Shown one piece after another: positions 7,342 through 45,700 of a stretch of 45,811 nt of DNA. The notes beneath the pieces are model-generated. The model did not search any database and had not been told where the DNA came from. It saw only the letters and a program-made list of their open reading frames with translations. A program made the position numbers and the translations under genes. The stretch comes from an uncultured Clostridia bacterium (GTDB lineage: Bacteria > Bacillota > Clostridia > Christensenellales > Aristaeellaceae), in assembly GCA_945948915.1 (NCBI GenBank), contig CAMFCQ010000013.1:1-45811 (forward strand), in the 5' to 3' direction. Position 1 is the first letter of the stretch, and each line of letters opens with the position of its first letter.

Positions 7342-7401
7342 GCGCGAAGCGAAGAAGGGTCAAGGGATGAAATCCCTTGCAGGGTTTGGGCGGCAACCCA
7401 A
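7342..7401 (+). repeat. Hairpin repeat family, copy A
   Basis: Head GCGCGAAGCGAAGAAGGG, then hairpin 1 (CAAGGGAT-GAA-ATCCCTTG, 7361-7379), then hairpin 2 (TTGGG/CCCAA around a GC-rich loop). It lies between the mannosidase terminator and the 3' end of eutH; its tail ends three bases from the eutH stop codon. Shortest copy of the family. Confidence 0.8.
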
Positions 7402-7403
7402 TA

Positions 7404-8483
7404 TCATGCAGCTTTGTTCGTGTCCCGCCGCGTCATCGCCAGCGCGAGGACGACGCCCACGGCGCAGCCCAGCAGCTTGGACAGCAGCAGAGGCACGGCC
7501 ATCTCAGGCTCGGCGCTGAGGGCAAAGCCCAGGTGCGCGGAAAACGCGGACGCGCCGCAGACCACGGACGCGCCGCAGAGCACCTTGCCGCGGTTGTCCA
7601 TGCGGGGGATCATCGCCAGCGCGGGCGTGACGCTGACCAGACCGATCAGCAGGCCGGTGGTGCTCACCTCATTGAGCCCGGTGCGCTCGCCGATCCACCG
7701 GAACGGCGCCTTCATCAGCCGCTGCACCATCTCCGCCAGGGGCATGCTGCCGAGCATGACGATGCCGATGGCGCAGACAGTCTCCATCGCCTCGGTCAGG
7801 GGCGTGAGGTTTTTGAGGGGACAGAAGCCCGTCATATACTGGATGGCGCCGAGCGTCAGGCCGAGGCTGGCAAGCGCCTGCACCCCCTTGGCGAACACGC
7901 TGAACCCGCGCACGACGGCCTGCGGCGCCTTGATCAGCCCGACGAACAGCGCCGCGGAGATCAGCAGAATGGGCAGGGTGTGAAAGAGGATCGTACCGGC
8001 GGACAGGCCGAAGGCCAGACCGCCGGCCAGAATGCCCGCCGGCATGGAGGCGAGCCCCAGCAGGACGCCCCGCGTGAAGAAGGGACGATCCTGCGCGCGC
8101 ACCGCGCCGAGCCCGACCGGAATGGTGAAGACGATGGTGCAGCCGAAGATGGCGGAGACGATGATGCCGGAGAACCGGCCGATCATCGGGTCGGCAGCCA
8201 GGTCCATGGACATCTGGTAGCCGCCCATGTCGATGGCCAGCATGCTGCCGAAGACGCCCGGATCGAGGCCGAGCGCTGAGAACAGCGGAACGACGATGTG
8301 ACCCAGGCCCTGCGAGAGCGCCGGGGCCAGGCAGATGATGCCCGCCATGGACAATCCGATGGGGCCGAGCAGACGGAAAGCCTCCTCAAACCGCGCACCA
8401 TAGCCAAAGCGGTTGCCAAGCATGTGATCCATGCCGCCGATGACCGCGCCGACAGCCATCACATAGAGAATGATCTGGTTCAT
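7404..8483 (-). CDS. eutH: EutH family ethanolamine permease
   Basis: Integral membrane protein of the EutH family, which brings ethanolamine across the membrane. About ten hydrophobic segments are visible. Family-like blocks are GLSMAGIICLAPALSQGLGHIVVPLF, SMLAIDMGGYQMSMDLA, TIVFTIPVGLGAV and IPRMDNRGKVLCGASVVCGASAFSAHLGFA. At 359 residues it is slightly shorter than the E. coli protein (about 400). No ammonia-lyase or microcompartment genes are in the window, so it stands apart from a eut operon. It lies 21 bases downstream of a histidine phosphatase gene and probably shares its promoter. An AAGGAAG ribosome site precedes the ATG. Function as an ethanolamine carrier is by homology. Confidence 0.85.
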   Translation of the reverse strand: MNQIILYVMAVGAVIGGMDHMLGNRFGYGARFEEAFRLLGPIGLSMAGIICLAPALSQGLGHIVVPLFSALGLDPGVFGSMLAIDMGGYQMSMDLAADPMIGRFSGIIVSAIFGCTIVFTIPVGLGAVRAQDRPFFTRGVLLGLASMPAGILAGGLAFGLSAGTILFHTLPILLISAALFVGLIKAPQAVVRGFSVFAKGVQALASLGLTLGAIQYMTGFCPLKNLTPLTEAMETVCAIGIVMLGSMPLAEMVQRLMKAPFRWIGERTGLNEVSTTGLLIGLVSVTPALAMIPRMDNRGKVLCGASVVCGASAFSAHLGFALSAEPEMAVPLLLSKLLGCAVGVVLALAMTRRDTNKAA

Positions 8484-8504
8484 GATGCGTGTACTTCCTT
8501 ATGC

Positions 8505-9095
8505 TTAGCGGTGGACGGAGAGCTCCCTGACCTGCCAGACGCCGCTCGTACGCTCCAGCAGGCTGACCGCCGCGTAATCATGGGGGATTTGCCTCTTTTC
8601 GCTCAGCGGACGGCCGAGCAGATCGCACAGCAGGAGCCGGTTGATGCCGGAGTGCGCGACGATGGCCGCGCAGCTTTCCGTGTGCGCATCGACATACGCG
8701 AGCGCGGCATGCGCCCGGGCAAGCCCCTGCGCGTCGCTCTCGCCGCCGGGCGGGCAGGAAAACCCGGTTCCCCGGACGAAGTACTGCGGATACTGCGCGC
8801 GGATCTGCTCAATGGGCAGGCCGTCCCACGCCCCGCCGTAGAGCTCGATGAGAGGATCAAGCACGTGAAGCGGCCTGCTGCCGGCGACGAGATCGGCGGT
8901 CTGCCGGGCGCGCAGCAGCGGGCTCGTGTAGACGGCTTCCAGCGGAAGCGCTGAGAAGAATTCTCCAAGCCTGCGCGCCTGCTCGAGTCCTTTTTCGCTC
9001 AGCGGCAGGTCGTTCTTCTGACCGAGACACATTTTTGCGCCGCCGGGGTAGTCCGGCAGCGCGTGACGTATCAGGTAAATCTGCTTTTCAGCCAT
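8505..9095 (-). CDS. Histidine phosphatase family protein (CobC-like)
   Basis: Cytoplasmic phosphatase of the phosphoglycerate mutase-like superfamily. The phosphohistidine motif is LIRHALPDY near residue 10 (an RHA instead of the usual RHG), the second catalytic histidine is in IVAHSGINRLLL, and YTSPLLRARQTADL is the conserved loop. At 196 residues it matches alpha-ribazole phosphatase (CobC/GpgP-like) proteins, but this superfamily is hard to assign. It is transcribed with eutH; ethanolamine lyase needs B12, so a role in cobalamin assembly would fit, though this is inference. The ATG at 9095 has GGAGAG six bases upstream, which decides it over the longer frame reaching 9179. Confidence 0.8.
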   Translation of the reverse strand: MAEKQIYLIRHALPDYPGGAKMCLGQKNDLPLSEKGLEQARRLGEFFSALPLEAVYTSPLLRARQTADLVAGSRPLHVLDPLIELYGGAWDGLPIEQIRAQYPQYFVRGTGFSCPPGGESDAQGLARAHAALAYVDAHTESCAAIVAHSGINRLLLCDLLGRPLSEKRQIPHDYAAVSLLERTSGVWQVRELSVHR

Positions 9096-9126
9096 AGGGT
9101 CGCTCTCCAACTCAGTTGATGGATGT

Positions 9127-9155
9127 ATGATACCATGGACGGCGGCGGCATGCAA
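9127..9155 (-). promoter_or_regulatory. Promoter of the phosphatase-eutH unit
   Basis: On the minus strand TTGCAT, 17 bases, TATCAT, about 32 bases upstream of the phosphatase start. It diverges from the promoter at 9206-9234. Confidence 0.65.
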
Positions 9156-9205
9156 TCGCCAATCGACGATTGCGTGCAAAATTGAAGTGCATGGCGTCGG
9201 GCTTC

Positions 9206-9234
9206 TTGACAGATCGTCAGGGAATTGATAAGAT
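9206..9234 (+). promoter_or_regulatory. Promoter of the structured leader and ABC importer operon
   Basis: Consensus TTGACA, 17-base spacer, TAAGAT. Transcription would start near 9241, leaving a leader of about 200 bases before the first gene. Confidence 0.75.
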
Positions 9235-9240
9235 AGTAAC

Positions 9241-9397
9241 GTCTTCGAGCCTTCCTTCCTAAGGCGGACGCTATGGAAGGACGGCCGTGTTAAGCAATTA
9301 ACTCAGGGTTCCGCTGGAAACGGTGCAGCCTTCCTGATTTGAAAAGGAGACGGAATGCATATGCGCTGAGGGTCTGTCTACTTGCCCCCCGGCTTGC
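9241..9397 (+). ncRNA. Candidate riboswitch leader, perhaps molybdenum/tungsten cofactor type
   Basis: A non-coding, promoter-driven leader ending in an intrinsic terminator just ahead of an ABC importer operon, which is the layout of a transcriptional riboswitch. Visible pairings are CCTTCC (9250-9255) with GGAAGG (9275-9280) and smaller hairpins around 9308-9350. The block GGCCGTG followed by CAAT and TAA resembles my memory of the Moco RNA motif, and the downstream yqeC and FecCD-type importer suit molybdate or tungstate. A tiny frame, ATG at 9355-9369 (MHMR), has an AAGGAG site six bases upstream. I see no B12-box like that of cobalamin riboswitches. The class is inferred from context more than from sequence. 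Confidence 0.45.
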
Positions 9398-9429
9398 CGT
9401 CCGCGTCCTTTGGAGCGCGGGCGTTTTTT
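9398..9429 (+). terminator. Leader terminator before the ABC importer genes
   Basis: CGTCCGCG pairs with CGCGGGCG (8 bp, one wobble, 10-base loop) followed by six T. It lies upstream of the first gene, only seven bases before its GAGG ribosome site, so it can only act as an attenuator. Confidence 0.75.
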
Positions 9430-9447
9430 GTTGTATGAGGCCTGCAG

Positions 9448-10509
9448 ATGACGGAGAGAAAAACGAGCATGAGAGAGAAAACTCCAGTACAAAAAACCGC
9501 TGGCACACGCCGCGCGGCCCTCTGCCTGACAGCGCTTTCAGGCCTGCTCGCCGCGTTGTTCCTGATTTCGTTTGTCCTGGGCCGCTACGACGTGCCGCTT
9601 TCCCAGGTGGCGCGCATCCTTGTGTCGCGCCTTGTCCCGCTTGAAAAAACCTGGTCGCCCAACATGGAGGCGGCTGTCATCAACATCCGTCTGCCGCGCA
9701 TCGCTCTGGCGTGCATGGTGGGCTGCTGCCTGGCCCTGGCGGGCACGGCGTATCAGAGCGTGTTTCAAAACCCCATGGCTGCGCCGGATATCCTGGGCGC
9801 GTCCTCCGGCGCGTGCTTCGGTGCAGCGCTGGCGATCCTGCTGGGCTTTTCTCGAGGTGGCATCACGGGCATGGCGTTTGTCTTCAGCCTGGTGACGGTC
9901 GTGCTGGTGTACATCATCGGCGCCCGGACGCGGGGCAGCCGCGTGATCAGCATCCTGCTGGCGGGCGTGATGGTGTCCTCGCTGTTTTCCGCCGGCACGT
10001 CGTTCATCAAGCTGGTCGCCGATCCGAGCAACGAGCTTCCCGCGATCACCTACTGGCTGATGGGCAGCCTGTCCGGCGCGAGGCTTTCGGAGGTGGGCTT
10101 TGCGCTGATCCCGATGACCATCGGCGCAGCGCCGCTGCTGCTGCTGCGCTGGCGCATCAACCTCCTGACGCTGGGGGAAGAGGAGGCATCGACGCTGGGC
10201 GTGAACACCGGCGCGCTGCGCCTTACGGTCGTGCTGTGCGCGACGTTCCTGACGGCGGCGAGCGTCGCGGTCAGCGGCATGATCGGCTGGGTCGGCCTCG
10301 TCATTCCGCACCTGAGCCGCAAGCTGGTGGGCAATGATTGCCGGTATCTGCTGCCGGCCTCCATGCTCATGGGTGCGAGCTTCCTGATGCTGGTGGACGA
10401 TATCTCCCGCAACCTGATGACCACGGAGATTCCCATCGGCATCCTGACGGCGTTCATCGGCGCGCCGTTCTTCATCTACCTGATGACCAGAAGGGGGAAT
10501 GCGCTGTGA
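9448..10509 (+). CDS. FecCD-type ABC transporter permease
   Basis: Membrane subunit of a BtuC/FecCD-family importer. About ten hydrophobic helices; typical blocks are LPRIALACMVGCCLALAGTAYQSVFQNPMAAPDILGASSGACFGA and SGMIGWVGLVIPHLSRKLVGNDCRYLLPASMLMGASFLMLVDDISR. At 353 residues the length is normal. The ATG at 9448 has GAGG seven bases upstream; an ATG at 9469 is possible. The family carries iron-siderophores, haem, B12 and, in MolBCA, molybdate. The presence of yqeC at the end of the operon and the leader RNA favour molybdate or tungstate here, but the substrate is inferred. Confidence 0.92.
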   Translation: MTERKTSMREKTPVQKTAGTRRAALCLTALSGLLAALFLISFVLGRYDVPLSQVARILVSRLVPLEKTWSPNMEAAVINIRLPRIALACMVGCCLALAGTAYQSVFQNPMAAPDILGASSGACFGAALAILLGFSRGGITGMAFVFSLVTVVLVYIIGARTRGSRVISILLAGVMVSSLFSAGTSFIKLVADPSNELPAITYWLMGSLSGARLSEVGFALIPMTIGAAPLLLLRWRINLLTLGEEEASTLGVNTGALRLTVVLCATFLTAASVAVSGMIGWVGLVIPHLSRKLVGNDCRYLLPASMLMGASFLMLVDDISRNLMTTEIPIGILTAFIGAPFFIYLMTRRGNAL

Positions 10510-11273
10510 GCCTGTGCGTGCAGAAGCTCTCCTTCTCCTACGGCGAGCAACCGGTGCTGGAGGATATTTCCTTCAGCCTGGAAAAGGGCGAGTTCCTCTC
10601 CGTGCTCGGTCCCAACGGCGTGGGCAAGAGCACGCTCTTTCGCTGCATTCTGGGCCTGCTTCCGGGGTATCAGGGCAGCATCCTTTCGGACGGCGAGGAC
10701 ATGCGCAGGCTGTCCGGCCGGGAAAAGTCCAAACGAATCGCCTATATCCCGCAGATCAACCGGCCAGCCTTTGGCTATACGGTGCTGGATACCGTGCTCA
10801 TGGGCACGACGCGCCAGCTCTCCTTGTTTGCCCAGCCCCAAAGCGCACAGATCCGTCAGGCGATGGACGCGCTTGAGCGCGTCGGCGCGGCGCATCTGAC
10901 ACAGCGCGATTTCACGCATCTCTCCGGCGGTGAGCAGCAGCTGGTGCTGGTGGCCCGCGCCATCGCGCAGCAGGCAGACATTCTGGTGATGGACGAGCCA
11001 ACCTCCGCGCTGGATTACGGCAATCAGCTGCGCGTGCTGGGGCTGGTGCGCGAGCTGGCCTCCGAGGGCTACGGCGTGCTGCTCTCCACGCACAATCCGC
11101 AGCACGCGCTGACCTTCGCCTCGCGCATCCTGGCGCTGTCCGGCGGACGCGTGGCCGCGCTGGGCAAGCCGGAGGAGGTGCTCACGCGGGAGCTGGTGCT
11201 CCGGCTGTACGGCGTGAATGCGGTCTTCGCCGATACCTCGGGCGGACGCGTGCTCGTCCCACTGATGGATTGA
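10506..11273 (+). CDS. ABC transporter ATP-binding protein (FepC/BtuD-like)
   Basis: ATPase partner of the upstream FecCD permease. Walker A GPNGVGKST is near residue 40, the signature LSGGEQQLVLVARAI near 140, Walker B ILVMDEPT near 160 and the switch histidine in LLSTHNP. The GTG start at 10506 overlaps the permease stop (GTGA), giving translational coupling and the standard 255 residues; a longer in-frame extension would lie inside the permease gene. Confidence 0.93.
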   Translation: MSLCVQKLSFSYGEQPVLEDISFSLEKGEFLSVLGPNGVGKSTLFRCILGLLPGYQGSILSDGEDMRRLSGREKSKRIAYIPQINRPAFGYTVLDTVLMGTTRQLSLFAQPQSAQIRQAMDALERVGAAHLTQRDFTHLSGGEQQLVLVARAIAQQADILVMDEPTSALDYGNQLRVLGLVRELASEGYGVLLSTHNPQHALTFASRILALSGGRVAALGKPEEVLTRELVLRLYGVNAVFADTSGGRVLVPLMD

Positions 11274-11357
11274 ATCTGAGCTCCCCCGTCCCTTCACAGC
11301 TCGCAGATGCGCACGCATCTGAGGCCATAAACAATTGCAGGAAGGATGAAATTTGTT

Positions 11358-12401
11358 ATGAAGAAAATGGCTGCGCTTATTCTCGCGCTGGCGCTGGCTG
11401 CCGCGCTGTCTCTGACGGCCTGCGCGGAGTCTTCCACCCGCGTCTTTACGGATTCGATCGGCCGTGAGGTGACCGTTCCGCAGGAGATCACCCGGATCGC
11501 TGTGACGGGCCAGCTGGGTCAGATCGTCGTCTTCGCCATCGCGCCGGACATGCTCGTGGGCATTCCCGGCGCGTGGCTTCCGGAAGCCAAGGCGTATCTC
11601 GATGAGCAGTATTATAACCTGCCGGTCATGGGCCAGCTCTATGGCGGCAAGGGTGAACTGAACCTGGAGGAGCTGCTCAAGGCCGCGCCGCAGGTGGTCA
11701 TCGATATCGGCGAGCCCAAGGGCAGCATCGTGGAGGACATGGATGCGCTCACGGAGCAGACGGGCATCCCGTTCGTTCATATCTCCGCGTATATCGACCG
11801 CATGGGCGAGACCTACGCCTTGCTGGGCGAGCTGCTGGGCATGGAGGAGGAAGCGAAAGCGCTTGCCGATGCCTGCGAGCGCATGTACAGCTGCGCCGTG
11901 GAGCTGTCGCAGGGCGTGGAGAAGGCGAACGTGCTCTATGTGATGGGCGCAGACGGCCTCAACGTGCTGGCCAGGGGCGCGTATCACAGCAGTGTGATCG
12001 ACATGATGGCCAACAACGTGGCCGTTGTGGAGAACGTCTCCTCCAGGGGCACCGGCAATGAGGTGGACATGGAGCAGATCCTCAATTGGAATCCGGACGT
12101 GGTCATCTTCTCCGAGGACAGCATCTTCGATACCGTGGCTGACGATCCGGTATGGCAGAGCGTCAGCGCGATCGCGAACAACACCTACTACCAGGTGCCG
12201 TTCGGCCCGTACAACTGGATTGGACAGCCGCCGGCCGTGCATCGCCTGCTGGGCATGCTGTGGATGGGCAAGCTGCTGTATCCGGAGACAGCGGCGTATG
12301 ATCTGTATGAAGAGGCTGCGCAGTATTATCAGCTGTTCTACCACTGCGACCTGACCCGGGAGCAGTACGACGCGCTGATGGCCAACTCCATCGGCAAGTG
12401 A
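11358..12401 (+). CDS. ABC transporter substrate-binding lipoprotein
   Basis: Extracytoplasmic solute-binding protein of the helical-backbone (TroA/BtuF-like) class, anchored by lipid. The signal peptide MKKMAALILALALAAALSL ends in an LTAC lipobox. DSIGREVTVPQEITRIAV is the usual start of the mature domain, and LLGMLWMGKLLYP near the C-terminus is seen in importers of this group. AGGAAGG abuts an earlier ATG at 11346, so the start at 11358 gives better spacing; both are in frame. It follows the ATPase gene by 84 bases. The ligand cannot be read; molybdate or tungstate is suggested by yqeC and the leader RNA. Confidence 0.9.
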   Translation: MKKMAALILALALAAALSLTACAESSTRVFTDSIGREVTVPQEITRIAVTGQLGQIVVFAIAPDMLVGIPGAWLPEAKAYLDEQYYNLPVMGQLYGGKGELNLEELLKAAPQVVIDIGEPKGSIVEDMDALTEQTGIPFVHISAYIDRMGETYALLGELLGMEEEAKALADACERMYSCAVELSQGVEKANVLYVMGADGLNVLARGAYHSSVIDMMANNVAVVENVSSRGTGNEVDMEQILNWNPDVVIFSEDSIFDTVADDPVWQSVSAIANNTYYQVPFGPYNWIGQPPAVHRLLGMLWMGKLLYPETAAYDLYEEAAQYYQLFYHCDLTREQYDALMANSIGK

Positions 12402-12425
12402 CAGCAGAATCGTGGAGGATCAGCG

Positions 12426-13208
12426 GTGAATAGACCGGACAATCAGGCGACGGCTTACTGGCTTGAAGCGGACCGCCTTGTGCGCGGAATGCCGCAGGAC
12501 GCCTTCCCGTTTCTCGGAGAGCGGGGCCATGTGGTCTCGCTGGTCGGCGGCGGCGGAAAGACGACGCTGATGTACTGCCTTGCGGAGGCGTCCAGTGGGC
12601 GCGGCCTGCGCACGGCGGTGATGACGACCACCAAAATGGGCCGGCCGGGTGCGTACTGCAGATCGATGGCAGCGTGCCTGAACTGCTGGTCGGCGGGGGA
12701 ATACGCCGTGTGCGGCGAGCGGCTGAACGAGCGCAGGCTGGTCGCGCCGGAGCCGGCGTTTCTTGCGCAGTTGCTTAAGCAGGCGGATGCGCTCTTCATC
12801 GAGGCGGACGGCGCGCGCCGGCTGCCCTGCAAGGCGCCGGATGCGCATGAGCCGGTGATCCTGCCTCAGACGGATACGGTGATTGCGGTGATGGGCCTTG
12901 ACGCGCTGGGCCAGCCGGTCGGGGAGATCTGCCTGCGCGCGCAGATCGTGCAGGCGCTGCTTGGCTGCGGTCCGGAGCACAGGCTCACGCAGGAGGACAT
13001 GGTCACGCTGCTGCTTTCCGAGCAGGGCTCGCGCAAGGGCGTGGCGCAGCGGGATTTCTTCGTCGTGCTCAACAAGTGCGACGATGCGCAGCGGCTTCAG
13101 GCGGGCAGAAGGATGCTCGAGCTGCTGCGCGATCAGGGACAGACGCGCGTCGTGCTGACGGCGGGCATGCGCCGCAGCGAGACGTACGAGCAAATCAAAA
13201 CGGAATAA
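12426..13208 (+). CDS. yqeC: Selenium cofactor biosynthesis protein YqeC
   Basis: Putative accessory factor for selenium-dependent molybdenum hydroxylases; known as a phylogenetic companion of those enzymes. A P-loop, SLVGGGGKTTLMYCLAE, lies near residue 40, followed by TTTKMGRP, IEADGARRLPCKAP and GLDALGQP, all typical of the family. Length 260. The GTG start at 12426 has GGAGGA seven bases upstream. It lies 24 bases after the binding-protein gene, so it belongs to the importer operon and points to molybdenum metabolism. No hydroxylase gene is in the window. Confidence 0.87.
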   Translation: MNRPDNQATAYWLEADRLVRGMPQDAFPFLGERGHVVSLVGGGGKTTLMYCLAEASSGRGLRTAVMTTTKMGRPGAYCRSMAACLNCWSAGEYAVCGERLNERRLVAPEPAFLAQLLKQADALFIEADGARRLPCKAPDAHEPVILPQTDTVIAVMGLDALGQPVGEICLRAQIVQALLGCGPEHRLTQEDMVTLLLSEQGSRKGVAQRDFFVVLNKCDDAQRLQAGRRMLELLRDQGQTRVVLTAGMRRSETYEQIKTE

Positions 13209-13215
13209 CCGTCTA

Positions 13216-13377
13216 ATACTAATTCTTGTTAAAATGGCCTAATCCGCGCACCATCTTTTCCGCTCTGACTTTGCCTTGTTCCGTTTAACGTACCTCCAGT
13301 ACGCCTCACTTCACTCGGCTTCGTCAGAGCAAAAAATCTGATGCGCTCTATTAGGCATTTTAACTGCGAATTAGTAT
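13216..13377. mobile_element. MITE-like element, copy 1
   Basis: A 162-bp unit bounded by imperfect inverted ends (ATACTAATTC-TTG-TTAAAAT-GGCCTAAT against the complement of ATTAGG-CATTTTAACTGCGAATTAGTAT). Inside, GCTCTGAC and GTCAGAGC also pair, so the whole unit can fold as one long imperfect hairpin. It holds no gene. The ends contain a TA that could be the target duplication. It sits between the yqeC stop and the terminator at 13384. A second copy lies at 28422-28584. Confidence 0.85.
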
Positions 13378-13383
13378 AACGGG

Positions 13384-13409
13384 GTCTGCCGACGGCAGGC
13401 TCTGTTTTT
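13384..13409 (+). terminator. Intrinsic terminator of the importer-yqeC operon
   Basis: GTCTGCC, GAC loop, GGCAGGC, then TCTG and five T. It is now separated from yqeC by the MITE-like element. Confidence 0.65.
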
Positions 13410-13484
13410 GCCCAGGTGATGCCTGGCTGAAAAATGGACACAATCAGACGCAATATGGAACTATCCTGTTCAGCCATCGTGCGG

Positions 13485-23142: not shown

Positions 23143-23304
23143 GCGAAGCGAAGAAGGGACCGTAGCCTGCCGCGCGCAGTGTGCGATGCAGGCAGGCGGA
23201 GCGTCGGGAATCGCAAGGAGCAGCAGGATGCTGCGACTATGCGAATTCCCCGGAAGTCTGAGGGATGAAATCCCTCAGGCGGGGTACGGGGCCTGCGGCC
23301 CCGT
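23143..23304 (+). repeat. Hairpin repeat family, copy B, split by a 96-base insert
   Basis: Head GCGAAGCGAAGAAGGGA (23143-23159), then 96 foreign bases, then the remaining element: hairpin 1 CTGAGGGAT-GAA-ATCCCTCAG (23258-23278) and hairpin 2 ACGGGGCC-TGC-GGCCCCGT (23286-23304). Comparison with copy C, where head and hairpin are contiguous, shows the insert. The insert itself holds GGGAATCGCA paired with TGCGAATTCCC (one bulged A) and an inner GCAGCA-GGA-TGCTGC hairpin. Confidence 0.75.
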
Positions 23305-23315
23305 CGTTTCCCCCT

Positions 23316-28176: not shown

Positions 28177-28305
28177 GCGAAGCGAAGAAGGGAGTCTGAG
28201 GGATGAAATCCCTCAGGCAGGTTTGGGCGGCAGCCCAACGCATCTCATCCTATCAGGGAGAATGTAGTCTCAGAGCAGGATGCGAAAGCATCCTACGATT
28301 GAGAC
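28177..28305 (+). repeat. Hairpin repeat family, copy C
   Basis: Head GCGAAGCGAAGAAGGGA; hairpin 1 CTGAGGGAT-GAA-ATCCCTCAG (28196-28216); hairpin 2 TTGGGC-GGCA-GCCCAA (28223-28238); hairpin 3, an outer stem GTCTCA/TGAGAC (28267-28272 with 28300-28305) enclosing AGGATGC-GAAA-GCATCCT. It lies upstream of the MATE gene, antisense to its leader. Confidence 0.85.
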
Positions 28306-28379
28306 GATGGTGATCTGCAAAGGCTGGATTTAAAACGAAATCAATTTATTATACGCTCTTTTGGAAGCAGCTTCAATAG

Positions 28380-28421: not shown

Positions 28422-28584
28422 ATACTAATTCTTGTTAAAATAGCCTAATCCGCGCACCATCTTTTCCACTCTGACTCTACCTTGTTCCGTTCAACGTACC
28501 GTGAGTAACGCCTCACTTCACTCGGCTTCGTCAGAGCGAAAAATCTGATGCACTCTATTAGGCATTTTAACTGCGAATTAGTAT
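28422..28584. mobile_element. MITE-like element, copy 2
   Basis: Same ends and same order of internal sequence as 13216-13377, with scattered differences (for example a changed centre and small substitutions), so the copies are not brand new. It lies inside a methyltransferase gene and its own sequence supplies that gene's premature stop. Confidence 0.85.
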
Positions 28585-30421: not shown

Positions 30422-30513
30422 CCGCGAAGCGGAGCAGGGGTCTGGGGATGAAATCCCCAGCAGGGGTACCGGGGACGGCGTCCCCGGTCAGGGTCCGGGA
30501 CAGCGTCCCGCCG
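30422..30513 (+). repeat. Hairpin repeat family, copy D, between argG and argH
   Basis: Variant head GCGAAGCGGAGCAGGGG; hairpin 1 CTGGGGAT-GAA-ATCCCCAG (30442-30460); hairpin 2 ACCGGGGAC-GGC-GTCCCCGGT (30488 is its last base); hairpin 3 CGGGAC-AGC-GTCCCG. It separates two genes of one pathway and is antisense to their transcript. Confidence 0.8.
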
Positions 30514-34471: not shown

Positions 34472-34618
34472 GCGAAGCGAAGAAGGGTCAAGGGATGAAA
34501 TCCCTTGCGGGGTTTGGGGCGGCGCCCCAAGCGGGTTTGGGCGGCAGCCCAACGTATCCCATCAATCAAGAAAAAATGTAGTTTCAGAGCAGGATGCGAA
34601 GCATCCTACGATTGAAAC
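34472..34618 (+). repeat. Hairpin repeat family, copy E, with doubled second hairpin
   Basis: Head GCGAAGCGAAGAAGGG; hairpin 1 CAAGGGAT-GAA-ATCCCTTG (34489-34507); hairpin 2 TTGGGGC-GGC-GCCCCAA (34514-34530); a second hairpin 2, TTGGGC-GGCA-GCCCAA (34537-34552); hairpin 3 with outer stem GTTTCA/TGAAAC (34581-34586 with 34613-34618) around AGGATGC-GAA-GCATCCT. It faces copy F in opposite orientation; together they fill the 400-base ruvB-queA gap, which holds no gene. Confidence 0.85.
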
Positions 34619-34683
34619 GGGGCTGATTTGTAAAGCTGATGTTGATCAGGCATAATGAAGAGTGTCTGCGGCTTTATTGCGGC

Positions 34684-34826
34684 GCCGTTTCAATAGGACG
34701 CTTCGCGTCCGCTGAAACGGGAGGAAATCCATAGAATGACGCGCTGCGCGATGATAGGGGGAACGCTGGGCGGCTGCCCAGACCTGCTTGGGGATTTCAT
34801 CCCCAAACCCCTTCTTCGCTTCGCGC
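34684..34826 (-). repeat. Hairpin repeat family, copy F, inverted
   Basis: Read on the minus strand: head GCGCGAAGCGAAGAAGGG ending at 34826; hairpin 1 TTGGGGAT-GAA-ATCCCCAA (34788-34806); hairpin 2 CTGGGC/GCCCAG (34766-34781); hairpin 3 with outer stem CCGTTTCA/TGAAACGG (34684-34719) around GGACGC-GAA-GCGTCC. Its head ends 22 bases before the queA start. Confidence 0.85.
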
Positions 34827-39267: not shown

Positions 39268-39280
39268 TTGAATTCGCATA

Positions 39281-39885: not shown

Positions 39886-39919
39886 GCGGCTTGATGCCGC
39901 GCGAAGCAATCATGAAAAT

Positions 39920-39945
39920 AAGCGCCCTCCAAACGGAAGGCGCTT
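39920..39945. terminator. Bidirectional terminator between TIGR04086 gene and rpsR
   Basis: AAGCGCCCTCC against GGAAGGCGCTT (one mismatch) around AAAC, with A-rich sequence to the left and T-rich to the right, in a convergent intergene. Confidence 0.75.
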
Positions 39946-39978
39946 GTTTCTGCAGGACAGTATGCCGGCGCACACAGC

Positions 39979-40239
39979 TTATTCAGCGGTGTAGGGCAGC
40001 AGCGCGATGGCACGGGCGCGCTTGATGGCCTCAGACAGCTGACGCTGATGCTTGGCGCAGTTGCCGCTCATACGGCGGGGCATGATCTTGCCGCGCTCGT
40101 TGATGTTGCGGCGCATACGGGAGTTCACATCACGGAACTCCTTGTAATCGATGTACTCGATCTTGTCAACACAGAACGCACAAACCTTGCGGCGCGGCTT
40201 GCGGCCACGCGGACGGCGTGCTCCACGATCTTCAGACAT
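39979..40239 (-). CDS. rpsR: 30S ribosomal protein S18
   Basis: Small-subunit protein pairing with S6 on the platform. A basic N-terminal tail ([11 protein letters not shown]) precedes [26 protein letters not shown] and the core [35 protein letters not shown]. The two cysteines in CAFC with the later C and H suggest a zinc-binding S18. 86 residues from the ATG at 40239, which has AAGGAG eight bases upstream. Last gene of rpsF-ssb-rpsR. Confidence 0.97.
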
Positions 40240-40295
40240 GGAAAGGTCTCCTTTCATCGCCGGGCAATCCGGCTTATTTTCTCAGATCAGATCAA

Positions 40296-40748
40296 TTAAA
40301 AGGGAAGTTCGTCGTCATCCACCTGCGTGAATCCGCTGTCAGCGGGCGCATAGCTCGGGGCCTGCTGGCGCTGCACCGGGGCAGGGGACACGGCAGCGTG
40401 ATAATCGCTGGAGGAAGCGGAAGAGGCATTACCGGAAGAAAGGAACTCGACATCGTCGGCGACGATGTCCACCGCGGTGCGCTTTGTGCCATCCTGCGCT
40501 TCATAGCTGCGGATCTGGATGGAACCGCACACGGCGACCTTCCTGCCCTTGGCCAGATAGCGGCCGCAGAGCTCGGCGAGCTGACGCCAGGCGACGATGT
40601 TGAAGAAATCGGTTTCCTGCTGGCCCGTCTGCGCATTCTTGAAGCGGCGGTTCACCGCGATGGAGAAGTTGCAGACCGGGATGCCGGCGGAGGTGGATCT
40701 CATCTCCGGGTCACGGGTCAGATTGCCAATCAAATAAACCTTGTTCAT
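40296..40748 (-). CDS. ssb: Single-stranded DNA-binding protein
   Basis: OB-fold protein that coats single-stranded DNA. MNKVYLIGNLTRDPEMRSTSAGIPVCNFSIAVNRRF is the N-terminal strand set, ETDFFNIVAWRQLAELCGRYLAKGRKVAVCG the core, then a glutamine-, serine- and proline-rich linker and the acidic tip DDDELPF that recruits partner proteins. 150 residues. It lies between rpsF and rpsR, the common Bacillota order. Confidence 0.97.
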   Translation of the reverse strand: MNKVYLIGNLTRDPEMRSTSAGIPVCNFSIAVNRRFKNAQTGQQETDFFNIVAWRQLAELCGRYLAKGRKVAVCGSIQIRSYEAQDGTKRTAVDIVADDVEFLSSGNASSASSSDYHAAVSPAPVQRQQAPSYAPADSGFTQVDDDELPF

Positions 40749-40784
40749 ACGCTCAATTCCTCTTGTGGATCATCATTCAATGGC

Positions 40785-41147
40785 TTACTCGGCCTTCTCG
40801 GCTTCGACAGCCTCTTCAACCGGAGCGACGCGGGCCGCGCGCGGCTTGACGCTGCTCTTCTTCTCCAGCAGCTTGACGATCTGAGAACGGATGACGCTCT
40901 CGTTGATCTGCAGGTTACGGGTCAGCTCCTTGGGCAGCTCGGCGGCGCCGTTGAAGCCAACGTAGACGTAGTAACCCTCGGTCTTGTAGTTGATGGCATA
41001 GGCCAGACGGCGCTTGCCCCACTCCTCAACCTTGACAACCTCACCGCCGTTGGCAGTGATGATACCGTTGAACTTCTCGATGAGCTCCTTGCGGGCGGTC
41101 TCCTCGACGGCGGTATCGATGATGTAGATCAGTTCGTACTTATTCAT
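40785..41147 (-). CDS. rpsF: 30S ribosomal protein S6
   Basis: Ferredoxin-like platform protein. MNKYELIYIIDTAVEETARKELIEKFNGII, then VVKVEEWGKRRLAYAINYKTEGYYVYVGFNG and LQINESVIRSQIVKL. The C-terminal tail past residue 100 is alanine- and glutamate-rich and longer than in many S6. 120 residues. Strong AAAGGAGG site. First gene of the operon, with its own promoter and a hairpin leader. Confidence 0.97.
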   Translation of the reverse strand: MNKYELIYIIDTAVEETARKELIEKFNGIITANGGEVVKVEEWGKRRLAYAINYKTEGYYVYVGFNGAAELPKELTRNLQINESVIRSQIVKLLEKKSSVKPRAARVAPVEEAVEAEKAE

Positions 41148-41174
41148 GATCCTTTCACCTCCTTTTGGACTCTG

Positions 41175-41198
41175 GTTCCGTCATTTCTCAGGCGGAAC
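41175..41198 (-). promoter_or_regulatory. Hairpin in rpsF leader, possible S6:S18 regulatory site
   Basis: On the minus strand GTTCCG and CGGAAC form a perfect 6-bp stem around CCTGAGAAATGA in the short rpsF leader. Many bacteria control this operon through an S6:S18-binding leader with a conserved CCG element; the position and the CCG and CGG sides fit, but I cannot test the match. Confidence 0.4.
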
Positions 41199-41217
41199 AA
41201 GGATGTGCCAGTTATGT

Positions 41218-41246
41218 ATATTAGCACAGGTTTCAAATGAAATCAA
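41218..41246 (-). promoter_or_regulatory. Promoter of rpsF-ssb-rpsR
   Basis: Minus strand TTGATT, 17 bases, TAATAT, about 70 bases before rpsF. Confidence 0.65.
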
Positions 41247-41303
41247 GAGTTTTTTTACTTTTTCTCAAATATCTTTTCTTTTTGCGGCGCAGCGGTATGC
41301 GGT

Positions 41304-42182
41304 TCACGGATCGTTCGTGCTGTCCGTGGATACATAGTATGTGCCGACGATCATGATGGTTAGCGCGATCAGGAAGGTCAGCGAAGGCATCTCCTTGAAG
41401 ATGATCAGAGACAGCAGTGCGCCGATGAACGGAGCCACTGCGTAGTACGAGCTTGTCTTGGCGGCACCCAGATCACGCTGGGCATAGATGTAAAAGAAGA
41501 TGCTCAGTCCATAAGCGACAAAGCCGAGGAGCAGCGCCGCTGCGATGCAGGGGAGGTTCTGCGTCCGCTCGCCAGTGAACAATCCGAGCATCAGAGAGCC
41601 GATACCGGAGCCAAAGCCCTTGATGACGACGATTTCCAGAGGATCCTTGTGCGAAAGATTCCGCGTGCAGTTGTTTTCAAATCCCCAGCACACACAGGCC
41701 AGCAGGACGAACAGCGAGCCAACGGTGAACGAAAGACTGCTGACGTCCTCAAAGGAAAGCACCAGGCTGGCCAGCGTGACGAGTCCAATGCCGATAAAGA
41801 GCCGTTTGGAAATCCGTTCCTTGAATATCAGCAGCGCAATCAGGCTGGTGGCGACAATTTCAAAATTGTTCAGCAGAGATGCGTTTGCCGCGGTTGTCCT
41901 GGTCAGGCCGATCATCAGAAAGATGGGGGCTGCGATGTCCAGCGCAACCATCGCTGCTGTGCAGGGGAGTTCGGCTCTCGTCAAGGGTGCTTCTTTGGCG
42001 GCATGGCCTGTCTTCCGCTGAACAATGCCCAGCAGGGAGAGACCGATACCGGCACCGAGATAGAGAAAACCGGCCATAAGCGTAGAGGGAATCTCCTGCA
42101 GCAGCAGTTTAGAGACAGGTGAGTTCAGAGCATACAGCGCCGCAGCCAGAATGGCAAAAAAGACAGCTCGTGCGTTCTTCAT
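41304..42182 (-). CDS. EamA (DMT) family transporter
   Basis: Drug/metabolite transporter with ten helices in two EamA repeats: AVFFAILAAALYALNSPVSKLLLQEIPSTLMAGFLYLGAGIG in the first, and VLLACVCWGFENNCTRNL through FLIALTIMIVGTYYVSTD in the second. 292 residues, normal. AAGGAG precedes the ATG. It lies 15 bases after the csoR-family gene and so is under the same metal-type operator, which is an unusual partner for an EamA protein. Substrate unknown. Confidence 0.9.
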   Translation of the reverse strand: MKNARAVFFAILAAALYALNSPVSKLLLQEIPSTLMAGFLYLGAGIGLSLLGIVQRKTGHAAKEAPLTRAELPCTAAMVALDIAAPIFLMIGLTRTTAANASLLNNFEIVATSLIALLIFKERISKRLFIGIGLVTLASLVLSFEDVSSLSFTVGSLFVLLACVCWGFENNCTRNLSHKDPLEIVVIKGFGSGIGSLMLGLFTGERTQNLPCIAAALLLGFVAYGLSIFFYIYAQRDLGAAKTSSYYAVAPFIGALLSLIIFKEMPSLTFLIALTIMIVGTYYVSTDSTNDP

Positions 42183-42197
42183 ACAGATTCTCCTTGG

Positions 42198-42464
42198 TTA
42201 CAGAAATTGATCAATAGCCTTGCCCAGCTCGACCAGTTCCGTTTCGTCTCCACGCTCAATGGCATCGACCAGACAGTGATTGATGTGATCCTTTAGGATC
42301 AGCTTTTGCGTGTTGTTGACCGCAGACTTCACCGCGGCCAGCTGAATGAGCACTTCACTGCAGTTTCGCCCATCCTCCACCATTCTCTTGATGCCTTCCA
42401 GATGCCCGATGATCCTGGAAAGACGGTTCAGCACATTCTGCGTCTCGGCGTGTTCATGACTCAT
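42198..42464 (-). CDS. csoR: CsoR/RcnR family metal-sensing repressor
   Basis: All-helical repressor, 88 residues. LNRLSRIIGHLEGIKRMVEDGRNCSEVLIQLAAVKSAV and LKDHINHCLVDAI hold the Cys35-His60-Cys64 set that binds Cu(I) in CsoR; an extra His63 and N-terminal histidines are present. The ATG at 42464 has GGAGGT seven bases upstream, and the frame further upstream crosses the operator and promoter. It is first in an operon with an EamA transporter. Copper is the likeliest signal; nickel-, cobalt- or aldehyde-sensing relatives cannot be excluded. Confidence 0.87.
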   Translation of the reverse strand: MSHEHAETQNVLNRLSRIIGHLEGIKRMVEDGRNCSEVLIQLAAVKSAVNNTQKLILKDHINHCLVDAIERGDETELVELGKAIDQFL

Positions 42465-42474
42465 GCGTTCACCT

Positions 42475-42499
42475 CCATATCCCCCCTGGGGGGATATGG
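42475..42499. promoter_or_regulatory. CsoR-type operator
   Basis: A 25-bp palindrome: CCATATCCCCCC, one central base, GGGGGGATATGG. G/C-tract palindromes of this form are the known CsoR-family operators. It lies between the -10 box and the ribosome site, so binding would block transcription. Confidence 0.8.
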
Positions 42500-42501
42500 A
42501 G

Positions 42502-42530
42502 AGTATATCATACCAGAAGAAAAACCGCAA
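42502..42530 (-). promoter_or_regulatory. Promoter of csoR-EamA operon
   Basis: Minus strand TTGCGG, 17 bases, TATACT, directly upstream of the operator. Confidence 0.65.
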
Positions 42531-42596
42531 GCGTATGCCCGGAACACAGTTTTCAGTGAACCTGCGGCATGAATTCAGTATTTATAGGGAAAAAGC

Positions 42597-42625
42597 TTGA
42601 CGAAAAGGGGATATCACGGTATAAT
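42597..42625 (+). promoter_or_regulatory. Promoter of obgE-yhbY
   Basis: TTGACG, 17 bases, TATAAT, 57 bases before the obgE ATG. Confidence 0.8.
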
Positions 42626-42682
42626 CTTGCGGATACTTTTTAAGACGTATCAATGTTTACTGGATATAGAGGAAGAAACACT

Positions 42683-43945
42683 ATGTTTGTCGATCAGGTC
42701 AAAATCACCGCGAAGGCCGGCAACGGCGGCAACGGCGCGGTTTCGTTTCATCGTGAGAAGTTCGTGCAGAACGGCGGCCCGGACGGCGGCGACGGCGGCA
42801 ACGGCGGCAGCGTCATCCTGCTGGCCGACGAGAACATGCACACGCTGATGGATTTCCGCTACAAGCGCAAGTATACCGCCGAAAACGGCGGCAACGGCGC
42901 GGCAATGCTCTGCCGCGGCAAGAGCGGACAGGATCTCGTCATCAAGGTGCCGGTGGGCACCATCGTGCGCGATACGGAAAGCGGCCGCCTCTGGGCGGAC
43001 ATGCACGAGGCCGGCCAGCGCCACGTTCTGCTTCGCGGCGGCAAGGGCGGCTGGGGCAACGCGCACTTTGCCACGCCGACCCGCCAGGCGCCCAACTTCG
43101 CCAAGCCCGGCCAGAAGTGCGACGTCGTCGAGTTCGAGCTGGAGCTCAAGTCCATCGCGGACGTGGGCCTCGTCGGCTATCCGAACGTCGGCAAGAGCAC
43201 CATTCTCTCCGTTGTGACCGCGGCCAAGCCGAAGATCGCGAATTATCACTTCACGACGCTCGCGCCGAACCTGGGCATCTGCCGCCAGTACGGCATGGAC
43301 TTCGTCATGGCCGATATTCCGGGCATCGTCGAGGGCGCCAGCGAGGGCGTGGGCCTGGGCATCCAGTTCCTTCGCCACGTCGAGCGCACCCGTCTGCTGG
43401 TGCACGTCGTCGATATCGCCGGCAGCGAGGGCCGCGACCCGGTCGAGGATTTTGAACACATCTGCGACGAGCTGGTGGGCTACGGCGATCTGGCCGAGCG
43501 CCCGCAGATCGTCGCGGCGAACAAGATGGACCTGCCGGGCGCACAGGAGAACCTCGAGCGCCTGCGCAGGCACCTGCACGGCACGGACATCGAGGTCTAT
43601 CCGATCTCCGCGGCCACGCGCCAGGGCTTTGACGAGCTGATGGGCGCGATCGTCAGGACGCTGCCGACCCTGCCGCAGACGCTGGTCTTCGAGGAGGAGC
43701 CGGAGGCCGTCATCGCCGAGGACGCGCCGTTCACCATCACCAAGGAAGGCAGCGACTATTACATCGTCGAGGGCAAGGCGATGGAGCAGCTCATCGGCTC
43801 CATCAATTTCGGCGACGACCAGTCCGTCAACTACTTCCATCGGACCCTGCGCAGCCGCGGCGTGATCGATGCGCTGCGTGCGGCGGGCGCGAAGGAAGGC
43901 GACACCGTCGCGATCTGCGACATGGAGTTTGACTTCGTGGAGTAA
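42683..43945 (+). CDS. obgE: GTPase ObgE/CgtA
   Basis: Essential ribosome-associated GTPase linked to 50S assembly and stress. The glycine-rich Obg fold is seen in KAGNGGNGAVSFHREKF and GGDGGNGGSVIL; the G domain has GLVGYPNVGKSTILSVVTAAKPKIANYHFTTL, DIPGIVEGAS and VAANKMDLPGA; a C-terminal OCT domain follows (FTITKEGSDYYIVEGKAMEQLI). 420 residues. The ATG at 42683 (MFVDQVKI) fits the family and has AGAGGAAG upstream; an in-frame ATG ten codons earlier does not. Confidence 0.97.
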   Translation: MFVDQVKITAKAGNGGNGAVSFHREKFVQNGGPDGGDGGNGGSVILLADENMHTLMDFRYKRKYTAENGGNGAAMLCRGKSGQDLVIKVPVGTIVRDTESGRLWADMHEAGQRHVLLRGGKGGWGNAHFATPTRQAPNFAKPGQKCDVVEFELELKSIADVGLVGYPNVGKSTILSVVTAAKPKIANYHFTTLAPNLGICRQYGMDFVMADIPGIVEGASEGVGLGIQFLRHVERTRLLVHVVDIAGSEGRDPVEDFEHICDELVGYGDLAERPQIVAANKMDLPGAQENLERLRRHLHGTDIEVYPISAATRQGFDELMGAIVRTLPTLPQTLVFEEEPEAVIAEDAPFTITKEGSDYYIVEGKAMEQLIGSINFGDDQSVNYFHRTLRSRGVIDALRAAGAKEGDTVAICDMEFDFVE

Positions 43946-43993
43946 CGGTCTGACACAACCGTACACTGTATGTATATAGAAAGGAAATCCTGC

Positions 43994-44281
43994 ATGACAA
44001 GCAAACAGCGCGCGTATCTGCGCGGATTGGCCAATACCATGGAGCCCATCCTTCACGTGGGCAAGGACGGCGTGAATGAGAACATGATCAAGCAGCTCGA
44101 CGATGCGCTCGAGGCGCGCGAGCTGATCAAGGGCACCGTGCTGCAGAACTGCCCGCTTTCCGCCCGTGAGGCGATTGCGGAGCTGTGTGAGAGCGCGAAT
44201 GCCGAGCCGGTGCAGTGCATCGGCAGCCGCTTTGTGATCTACCGCGCCCGCAAGGAAGAGCCGAAGATCGTTCTGCCCTGA
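43994..44281 (+). CDS. yhbY: YhbY family RNA-binding protein
   Basis: CRM-domain RNA-binding protein associated with pre-50S particles. MTSKQRAYLRGLANTMEPILHVGKDGVNENMIKQLDDALEARELIKGTVL and IGSRFVIYRARKEEPKIVLP cover the whole domain, including the GKDG-like loop. 95 residues. AAAGGA lies upstream of the ATG. It follows obgE by 48 bases; the pair is a common Bacillota ribosome-assembly unit. Confidence 0.93.
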   Translation: MTSKQRAYLRGLANTMEPILHVGKDGVNENMIKQLDDALEARELIKGTVLQNCPLSAREAIAELCESANAEPVQCIGSRFVIYRARKEEPKIVLP

Positions 44282-44291
44282 AGCGCGCGGG

Positions 44292-45053
44292 CTAGGGCGT
44301 AAGGAACGCCTGCTCCATCCCTGCAAGCGCAGTAAGAAGTGCATATACCCCAAGCGCGATGCGAAGTCCCCGGCGGATTTCGCCGCGCTTTTTGTTTTTT
44401 TCAAACCGCCAGCCGCCGATGAGCGCGCCGGCAGACAATGCGGCGAGCATCTGCGGGGGAAGCACCTGCGCGCCGCCGGAGAGCAGCGTGAGCAGCAGCG
44501 CGCTGGCCTGTGCCGTGAGCGTGAGCAGCAGCGCGGCGGAGGGCGGCGCGCCGGCTTTTCTGCGCACGCCGTCATGCGCGAAAAGCTGGAAGGTTGCCAG
44601 TGCACCGCCGCCGAGGAAGCCGTCGATCCATGCACCCGGCAGCGCGCACAGGAACAGGCCCATGCGCGTCCGGGGAAGCGGGATGCGGCGCAGCTTGCCG
44701 GGCAGCAGCGCGGCCAGCGTCAGCGCCAAAAGGGGAAACGCCTGCATGCGCGCCAGCTCGGGGCTCCCGGAATGCCGCGCGACGAACATGAGCAGCAGCA
44801 TGCGGCCGAGCGTACCGCCGGTCATGCCTGCGATGGCGGCGGACAGGCGCTGCCCCGGCGGCACGGCGCGCAGACCGCCGCGCGCGCTCAGCGCGCCCAA
44901 ACAGCCGAAGAGCGCGGCCACACTGGCCAGCGCCACTGCGGCGCGCGGGGAGAAGCGCAGGCAGGCAGCCAGACCGCTTCGCAGGGCCAGCGGCGCAAGC
45001 ACGGGGGAAAGCGAAAAGAGCAGCCAGGCGGAAGAAAACAGCGCGATCTCCAT
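44292..45053 (-). CDS. TauE/SafE-like membrane protein
   Basis: Membrane protein of 253 residues with about eight helices. The family's two glycine-rich halves are recognisable in SPRAAVALASVAALFGCLGALSARGG and ALPGAWIDGFLGGGALATFQLFAHDGV, followed by SAALLLTLTAQASALLLTLLSGG. TauE/SafE proteins move sulfite, sulfoacetate or other organic anions. The ATG at 45053 has GGAGGG six bases upstream. The sequence is divergent, so the family assignment is moderate. Confidence 0.65.
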   Translation of the reverse strand: MEIALFSSAWLLFSLSPVLAPLALRSGLAACLRFSPRAAVALASVAALFGCLGALSARGGLRAVPPGQRLSAAIAGMTGGTLGRMLLLMFVARHSGSPELARMQAFPLLALTLAALLPGKLRRIPLPRTRMGLFLCALPGAWIDGFLGGGALATFQLFAHDGVRRKAGAPPSAALLLTLTAQASALLLTLLSGGAQVLPPQMLAALSAGALIGGWRFEKNKKRGEIRRGLRIALGVYALLTALAGMEQAFLTP

Positions 45054-45141
45054 GGCCAGCCCTCCGCAAACGGTTTGCTCTATTGTGCGCAAAAGCACGA
45101 AGAACCATGCAGAAAACCGGCACAGTGCTGCGATGGTGTGC

Positions 45142-45147
45142 TATAAT
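45142..45147 (+). promoter_or_regulatory. Probable -10 box of the half-size EamA gene
   Basis: Perfect TATAAT 36 bases before the ATG; no clear -35 box. Confidence 0.4.
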
Positions 45148-45183
45148 ATGTGCAAGCATTTTTCTATCATGGAGGGAGAATCT

Positions 45184-45597
45184 ATGTGGGCAGTATTTGC
45201 GGTGCTGTCGGCGGTCTTCGCGGCGCTGACGAGCATTCTGGCGAAGGTTGGTATTGAGGGCGTCAACTCCACGCTCGCCACGGCGATCCGCACGGTGGTC
45301 GTGCTGGCGATGAGCTGGGGCATGGTGTTCATCATGAACGTGCAGAACGGCATCGGCTCGATCAGCCGCAAGAGCTGGCTGTTTCTGATCCTGTCCGGCC
45401 TGGCGACAGGCGCGTCCTGGCTGTGCTATTACCGAGCGCTGCAGCTGGGCGAGGCCTCGAAGGTCGTGCCGATTGACAAGCTCAGCGTCGTCATCACGCT
45501 GGCGCTGGCATTCATCTTCCTGCACGAGCCGTTCACGACCAAGTCGCTCATCGGCGCGGCGCTCATCACCGTCGGCACGCTGGTGATGGTGCTGTGA
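45184..45597 (+). CDS. Half-size EamA transporter
   Basis: Membrane protein of 137 residues with one EamA domain of about five helices: MWAVFAVLSAVFAALTSILAKVGIEGVNSTLATAIRTVVVLAMSWGMVFIM, then ILSGLATGASWLCYYRALQLGEASKVVPIDKLSVVITLALAFIFLHEPF. Single-domain EamA proteins are known and must dimerise to make a full carrier. GGAGGGAG lies eight bases before the ATG; the open frame upstream is antisense to the TauE-like gene and is not coding. Substrate unknown. A hairpin repeat follows after 15 bases. Confidence 0.87.
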   Translation: MWAVFAVLSAVFAALTSILAKVGIEGVNSTLATAIRTVVVLAMSWGMVFIMNVQNGIGSISRKSWLFLILSGLATGASWLCYYRALQLGEASKVVPIDKLSVVITLALAFIFLHEPFTTKSLIGAALITVGTLVMVL

Positions 45598-45611
45598 GTT
45601 GCTTGTATAGG

Positions 45612-45700
45612 CGCGAAGCGAAGAAGGGAGTCTGAGGGATGAAATCCCTCAGGCGGGTTTTAGGGCGGCGCCCTAACGTATTCCTATATGGCGAAGCCAT
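45612..45700 (+). repeat. Hairpin repeat family, copy G
   Basis: Head GCGAAGCGAAGAAGGGA; hairpin 1 CTGAGGGAT-GAA-ATCCCTCAG (45632-45652); hairpin 2 TTAGGGC-GGC-GCCCTAA (45660-45676); a short third hairpin ATGGC-GAA-GCCAT (45688-45700). Confidence 0.85.

Follow-up and report, generated by a model that had tools for sequence, protein, structure and literature searches.

A Candidate Modular Family of Interspersed Hairpin Repeats in Uncultured Gut Clostridia

The Repeat and Its Copies

The 45,811-nt stretch of DNA analyzed here (the window) makes up all of contig C13 (GenBank CAMFCQ010000013.1) of the metagenome-assembled genome (MAG) of an uncultured Clostridia bacterium of the family Aristaeellaceae (2.9 Mb, 158 contigs, 88.7% complete), and it carries seven copies of an intergenic repeat in which a conserved head is followed by a series of hairpins. 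On balance, we favor the interpretation that these repeats are a new modular family of interspersed DNA repeats, similar to the repetitive extragenic palindromes (REP) and to BOX elements, under concerted evolution. The many paired changes in their stems seem to come mostly from the exchange of whole hairpins: recombination or gene conversion among the approximately 200 dispersed copies would replace a hairpin entirely (both arms and the loop) and would be the main source of the covariation, while the site itself would stay inherited.

The head, GCGAAGCGAAGAAGGG, is a CGC-GAA-GCG mini-hairpin plus AAGAAGGG. Behind it come one to three interchangeable hairpins, connected to one another by GC[A/G]GG(T) linkers, and tail hairpins that vary. 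The window contains seven heads, six exact and one with two mismatches (30424), whereas dinucleotide shuffles average 0.77 and never exceed 4; six are on the plus strand (starting at 7344, 23143, 28177, 30424, 34472, and 45613) and one is on the minus strand (34809-34824). A first-pass annotation of the window had claimed seven copies, all of which are present, with plus-strand starts 0-2 nt from the positions it gave. It had also proposed a shared head with hairpins in a fixed order; the order is indeed constant, but the set is not, since each copy has two to four hairpins. The copies (HP, hairpin) are as follows:

Copy A, 7344..7410, plus strand: head; HP1 7361-7379 (CAAGGGAT-GAA-ATCCCTTG); HP2 7386-7401; 65.5 bits.
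Copy B, 23143..23313, plus strand: head 23143-23158; insert 23159-23253; HP1 23258-23278; HP2 23286-23304.
Copy C, 28177..28330, plus strand: head; HP1 28196-28216; HP2 28223-28238; HP3 28267-28305 (GTCTCA..TGAGAC).
Copy D, 30424..30512, plus strand: head (two mismatches); HP1 30442-30460; HP2 30468-30488; third hairpin 30496-30510.
Copy E, 34472..34635, plus strand: head; HP1 34489-34507; HP2a 34514-34530; HP2b 34537-34552; HP3 34581-34618.
Copy F, 34670..34824 (low end approximate), minus strand: head 34809-34824; HP1 34788-34806; HP2 34766-34781; HP3 34687-34718.
Copy G, 45613..45745 (high end approximate), plus strand: head; HP1 45632-45652; HP2 45660-45676; tail hairpin 45713-45737 (GTCAGG..CCTGAC).

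Copies E and F share one intergenic gap, in which F is inverted. The GAA loop that had been ascribed to every HP1 is found in all seven window copies but not throughout the genome, where most apices have either GAA with a T-A closing pair or a variable triplet with a C-G closing pair (C-NNN-G), and A-CTGG-T occurs in addition. Similarly, the third hairpin described as GTYTCA/TGARAC occurs in three of the seven copies (at 28267, 34581, and 34687) and not in the other four. d(GCGAAGC) is a known mini-hairpin. GCGAAGC follows the head in 106 of 336 copies, compared to 14 of 336 random stretches, and in the papers listed the motif appears alongside "extraordinarily stable" hairpin DNA.

The window's own genome has 197 head sites (with up to two mismatches), compared to three for a reversed-pattern control. 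The covariance-model search that the annotation had proposed finds at least 150 matches to the core in this genome: all of the 150 candidates scored match, the weakest of them with an E-value of 7e-11.

Paired Changes in the Stems

The compensatory stem changes noted in the first-pass annotation hold up well in an alignment of 60 copies: there are 137 cells in which both sides of a pair have changed, while shuffles give 49.9 (0 of 500) and slid controls give 3-21. The number of further pair types goes in the opposite direction (17, where the shuffles average 21.1). Four HP1 pairs occur in two to four Watson-Crick forms each: pair 22-40 (CG 34, UA 23, GC 3), pair 23-39 (UA 23, GC 16, AU 13, CG 7), pair 24-38 (AU 32, GC 28), and pair 29-33 (CG 30, UA 25). 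There is no G-U cell in pairs 22-40, 23-39, and 24-38, in a sample that admitted at most one non-Watson-Crick pair per hairpin. The 60 copies, including five from the window, were picked by hand from 112 representatives with parseable HP1 and HP2, and the exclusion of copies that had inserts or stems that could not be parsed favors paired stems.

One explanation for these paired changes is that the repeats are functional cis-acting RNAs, hairpins at the 3' end of mRNAs that stabilize or process them, with compensatory selection keeping the stems. This explanation, which we consider rather unlikely, is consistent with the excess of compensatory pairs over the controls and with the low RNA folding energy of four of the six stretches folded (z-scores of -3.3 to -5.0); however, the RNA folds of the copies at 7344 and 30424 are weak (-0.7 and -1.1). 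The corresponding DNA folds have z-scores of -3.9 to -6.0 for four copies, -1.2 for 7344, and -2.3 for 30424 (six copies were covered, with 23143 in part only and 45613 left out). Selection on a sense-strand RNA would predict more G.T than A.C among the one-sided mismatches, whereas in HP1 and HP2 together there are nine G.T and 17 A.C, which are small numbers, with neither hairpin significant alone. A tolerance of RNA wobble pairs is therefore not seen. This count, in which G.T and A.C were treated alike, comprises 116 distinct HP1 and 88 distinct HP2 haplotypes, including a few chance hairpins; one hairpin parse, used in the survey of apices above, ranked G.T over other mismatches. The HP1 loops, which are GAA triloops or variable, also argue against an RNA; the STAXI argument in PMC2864571 is a precedent for weighing DNA against RNA on the basis of the loop sequence.

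Hairpin Turnover at Orthologous Sites

The origin of the paired changes was approached by comparing elements of different species that share both their 5' and their 3' flanks across 150 nt or more, which gave 36 pairs forming 19 groups. Four groups were set aside, three of them containing a copy with terminal inverted repeats (TIRs), which may be a separate insertion (one partner has a mirrored head), and the fourth comparing an HP2-type with an HP1-type hairpin; the closest pair was used in each group. In 10 of the 15 remaining groups, at least two HP1 pairs have changed on both arms, and in eight of these the loop has changed too; HP1 is identical in three groups, differs in the loop only in one, and shows a one-sided difference in another. 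For comparison, 84% of random inter-genome pairs have at least two changed pairs, and 3.4% are identical. The identity of the flanks is mostly 80-97% (the lowest among the 15 groups being 69.8 and 73.5). For example, at the site of copy E (34472), HP1 reads CAAGGGAT-GAA-ATCCCTTG in the window and CTGGAGAC-AAT-GTCCCCAG in the L222 orthologue, and at the site of copy D (30424) there are three hairpins in the window, two in L222, and three, with a different third one, in L237.

Changes of several pairs on both arms, usually together with the loop, fit the exchange of whole hairpins better than stepwise compensation, and sites tend to be inherited while their hairpins turn over as blocks. Such simultaneous differences, like the lack of a G.T excess, argue against the cis-acting RNA. 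The first-pass annotation had taken the fold to be what "selection or copying" sees: the idea of the fold as a target of selection is not supported here, and copying fits the data. Changes of this type would probably pass an RNA covariation test, and yet much of the signal looks like the exchange of DNA hairpins, which is a warning; a comparison of orthologous sites combined with a count of G.T against A.C is a simple control.

Another possibility is that each hairpin is corrected from one arm to the other by template switching at the quasi-palindrome, without selection or exchange between copies. The arms are nearly perfectly Watson-Crick across the haplotypes, as such a correction would leave them, and rare reverse-complement apices exist: CCAG for CTGG in the otherwise similar MITE (miniature inverted-repeat transposable element) copy L016, and single ATT and ATC apices against AAT and GAT. 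The sole TTC apex (L169), however, is not an inversion, since this copy has a mirrored head and was read from the other side. Moreover, arm-to-arm correction alone accounts neither for the simultaneous changes of several pairs and the loop nor for the gain and loss of whole hairpins, and we regard it as improbable.

Placement Relative to Genes

With a codon-scored gene caller (a simple, purpose-made one), 281 copies were placed: 124 lie in codirectional gaps in the sense orientation, 99 in convergent gaps, 56 in codirectional gaps in the antisense orientation, and two in divergent gaps; a further four are inside genes, and five are at edges. Divergent gaps thus hold two of 281 copies, compared to 137 of 791 in the background of gaps of at least 60 nt. 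Copy A lies between two convergent genes, 4246-7278 (plus strand) and 7404-8483 (minus strand). The placement would reflect selection that removes insertions from promoters and reading frames, with copies tolerated behind genes and purged from promoters.

A cis-acting RNA would also find some support here. Behind a co-oriented gene are 223 of the 281 copies, the sense orientation exceeds the antisense one in codirectional gaps (124 to 56), and in copies without TIRs the median distance from the stop codon of the co-oriented upstream gene to the head is 29-32 nt. However, copies bearing TIRs show a similar sense bias (18 to 8), so that the bias looks like one of insertion or purging. An RNA function is not needed for the data; effects on the co-transcribed mRNA are possible, as is a putative role in mRNA stability or attenuation.

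The GC-rich hairpins and their position behind genes also bring to mind intrinsic transcription terminators, but a hairpin with a T-run is found within 110 nt of the head in nine of 336 copies, against 12 of 336 random stretches, which makes this explanation scarcely credible.

Mobile Elements Associated with the Repeats

A subset of the repeats lies inside units of 191-198 bp (286-288 bp with an insert) that have TIRs of the form TACT..AGTA. Among the distinct short TIR-TIR units that bear the core, 23 of 26 (41 of 44 when counted by insertion site) have identical 3-bp TNA flanks. The same is true of 27 of all 34 distinct TIR units, a total that counts six units belonging to a second MITE and two of implausible length. 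One set of 116 copies has the left TIR motif in 46, and a pooled set with stronger deduplication has it in 30 of 326; TIRs were not seen in the other copies. Some copies are thus carried by MITEs, while those outside MITEs may have spread by a DNA route other than the RAYT (REP-associated tyrosine transposase). One end of a core-type MITE is present in the window:

MITE end, 45763..45811, minus strand: end of the type that carries the core elsewhere, with TIR TACTACTCTCAAATAAAATCGGCC; it runs off the contig.

The second MITE is approximately 160 bp long, has no hairpin core, and occurs in the window at 13217-13376 (with TAA on both sides) and 28423-28583 (with TAA and TGA). Its ends are TACTAATTC..AATTAGTA, and the two window copies are 91% and 97% alike over two compared stretches. 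Transposases of the PF01609 family beside two copies, presumably IS5/IS427-like, were considered as a source of the MITEs and rejected because they have other ends and are merely adjacent to a MITE.

A further candidate is a REP-like system in which a RAYT (Y1) transposase mobilizes the hairpins in single-stranded form. REP elements sit at gene ends, and the copy number, the hairpins, and the placement behind genes are all REP-like here. Against this, the GT(A/G)G head is missing, and Y1_Tnp was not found in seven of the 12 genomes with at least 30 heads (the window's own, G096, G220, G269, G273, G187, and G226; the MAGs are incomplete). The other five have strong (G151, G244) or weak (G071, G135, G261) matches, and strong matches are also present in G232, G249, G265, G277, and G281, each of which has 0-16 heads. 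We therefore judge RAYT mobilization to be very improbable.

Insertions at Hairpin Apices

Among 357 distinct copies, insert 1 is present in 44 and insert 2 in seven (within approximately 230 nt of the head). The left junctions that were read are mostly after the GGG of the 5' arm, a few after GGA or GGC, and two directly behind the head. One of the latter is in the window:

Insert 1 in copy B, 23159..23253, plus strand: a 95-nt structured element directly after the head.

It shifts HP1 of copy B by 95 nt downstream and had received no mention in the first-pass annotation.

Outside insert 1, three filled MITE clones agree with an empty clone, L019, at 184-185 of 190 letters: in L018 and L026, a 94-nt insert 1 interrupts HP1 at GGGA^TGAAATCCC, and in L056 a 96-nt relative interrupts HP2 at GGG^CGGCAGCCC. 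L019, L018, L026, and L056 each have their own TNA flank. The match between empty and filled clones is direct evidence of two separate apex insertions, with no visible target duplication. An IS110-type transposase (PF01548) was sought as the agent and set aside, being present in none of the seven genomes searched. We suggest, as a speculative and doubtful idea, that the apices are dedicated sites of exchange and landing, where a machinery working on single-stranded or cruciform DNA would insert elements after the GGG of the 5' arm and swap hairpins among the approximately 200 copies, which would make of them a genome-wide cassette pool. Such clean insertions are a testable case for mobility targeted to DNA hairpins in genomes in which Y1 or IS110 transposases were not found.

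Insert 1 (94-96 nt) has the pattern ACCGRAGCC..GGAATCGCAAGGAGC..GCGACTATGCGAGTTCCCCGG, and its second hairpin has a GGAGC / GCGAC(T/C)AT internal-loop motif common to the tail hairpins of other copies. Insert 2 has the pattern TTCGG..CCGAA...GACCGACGAGCGTCGAGCGAGGAG (L096, L108, L155, L172).

Evidence Against Concerted Evolution of a DNA Repeat

Several points weigh against the interpretation of the repeats as a DNA family under concerted evolution. Gene conversion is only inferred, since the donor tract was not traced. Two orthologous comparisons (L188/L242 and L189/L241) differ at exactly two separate pairs, which stepwise compensation could equally give, and independent insertions at the same junction are a possible source of the orthologue differences; moreover, relative to the head start the flank windows begin 15 nt upstream and 110 nt downstream, and they may therefore take in tails. 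The excess of sense over antisense copies (124 to 56) points to an influence of transcription. With a cruder, longest-ORF (open reading frame) caller, 40 of 190 copies fell in divergent gaps and 104 fell "inside" ORFs; it was judged unreliable because of the long antisense ORFs in this genome. The transposase of the MITEs was not found in the window's own genome, in a search confined to PF01609, the matches to which have other ends. Finally, the very high conservation of the head is partly circular, because copies were selected by the head motif.

Distribution

The repeats constitute an unnamed system that is widespread in a single family of uncultured Clostridia of the gut. In a survey of 300 genomes of the family (up to one mismatch in the head), the 29 genomes of the window's genus comprise 12 with 30-243 heads, four with 10-16, and 13 with 0-4. 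The richest are G071 (243), G135 (240), the window's own genome (169), G096 (166), and G220 (152). Outside the genus, each of the 271 genomes has 0-2 heads, as does the reversed control. By contrast, a core model of two hairpins reaches 26 of the 50 genera sampled, with matches at E <= 1e-4 in 54 of 120 genomes; this second survey was of family genomes only, the 66 genomes without a match are its sole control of the outside type, and its E-values are rough. G032, a member of the genus with 12 heads, has 142 core matches among 150 scored. In other genera, a GGG-TCAAGGG..CCCTTG-GCGGGGTTTGGGG..CCCCAA layout is combined with different heads (e.g., L266, L270, L271). With many heads only in one genus and the core found family-wide, the head is a feature of the genus and the hairpin core one of the family.

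Among the matches listed, the records with the head plus GGGA are mostly Clostridia MAGs, many from the ruminant rectum or caecum, together with one Deltaproteobacteria, one Mucispirillum-labelled, and one Christensenellaceae contig.

Some variant arrangements were also observed. G024, which belongs to another genus, has runs of several different GC-rich hairpins with GGG-type linkers (e.g., L268, L275, L283, L291). At G265:C12:36196-36527, a variant head (GCGAAGCGATGAAGGG) occurs three times in tandem with spacings of 154 and 162 nt. In L169, L032, and L053, the head is wholly or partly mirrored behind HP1, so that a single long hairpin runs through head and stem.

Relation to Known Repeat Families

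The absence of a named family, as stated in the first-pass annotation, stands insofar as no Rfam family matches the repeats above the gathering threshold and no published name was found in the literature, in a search resting mainly on titles and the openings of abstracts. The layout is of a known general kind (REP/BIME, BOX, or MITE-like), while the family itself appears to be new.

The nearest Rfam family, as found in the overlap check that the annotation had called for, is Clostridiales-2 (RF02937), whose GGG and GC-rich stem can be aligned to HP1 in register. All ten genomes searched have weak matches (E <= 0.1), and so have four of 14 control genomes, with 14.7-31 bits against a gathering threshold of 58.6, so that none of the ten exceeds the cut-off; two window copies score 15.4 and 21.6 bits. 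A relation to Clostridiales-2 is at most a lead. A Clostridiales-1 match on copy B (17.8 bits) was treated as chance because none of five other loci examined, four with the insert and L079 with a match to the insert's pattern, gave it again.

REP elements and the bacterial interspersed mosaic elements (BIMEs) are likewise intergenic and composite, with more than 100 copies per genome and GC-rich palindromes that can fold as single strands. However, the repeats described here lack the GT(A/G)G head (there is no GTAG or GTGG in the conserved part), have one to three different hairpins in a fixed order, belong to a Clostridia host, and occur without a RAYT in seven of the 12 copy-rich genomes; the gammaproteobacterial REP/BIME definition and the link to RAYT are given in PMC2817692. 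The BOX element of Streptococcus pneumoniae is also a modular interspersed repeat, the comparison being one of layout alone and not of sequence. According to PMC3049150, BOX has fixed end modules, a number of internal modules that varies between strains, and effects on transcripts. The hairpins of the present repeats also differ from each other inside one element and at orthologous sites. The third likeness is to MITEs with a TNA target, since the 191-198-bp units bear the core between TACT..AGTA TIRs and have 3-bp TNA duplications; however, most copies of the repeat have no TIRs. MITEs with TNA target duplications are of the IS5 group (IS1031-like). Stem-loop repeat families across 40 genomes are the subject of PMC2267715.

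The window also contains, at 9231-9365 on the plus strand, a molybdenum cofactor (Moco)/tungsten riboswitch (RF01055, 79.3 bits).

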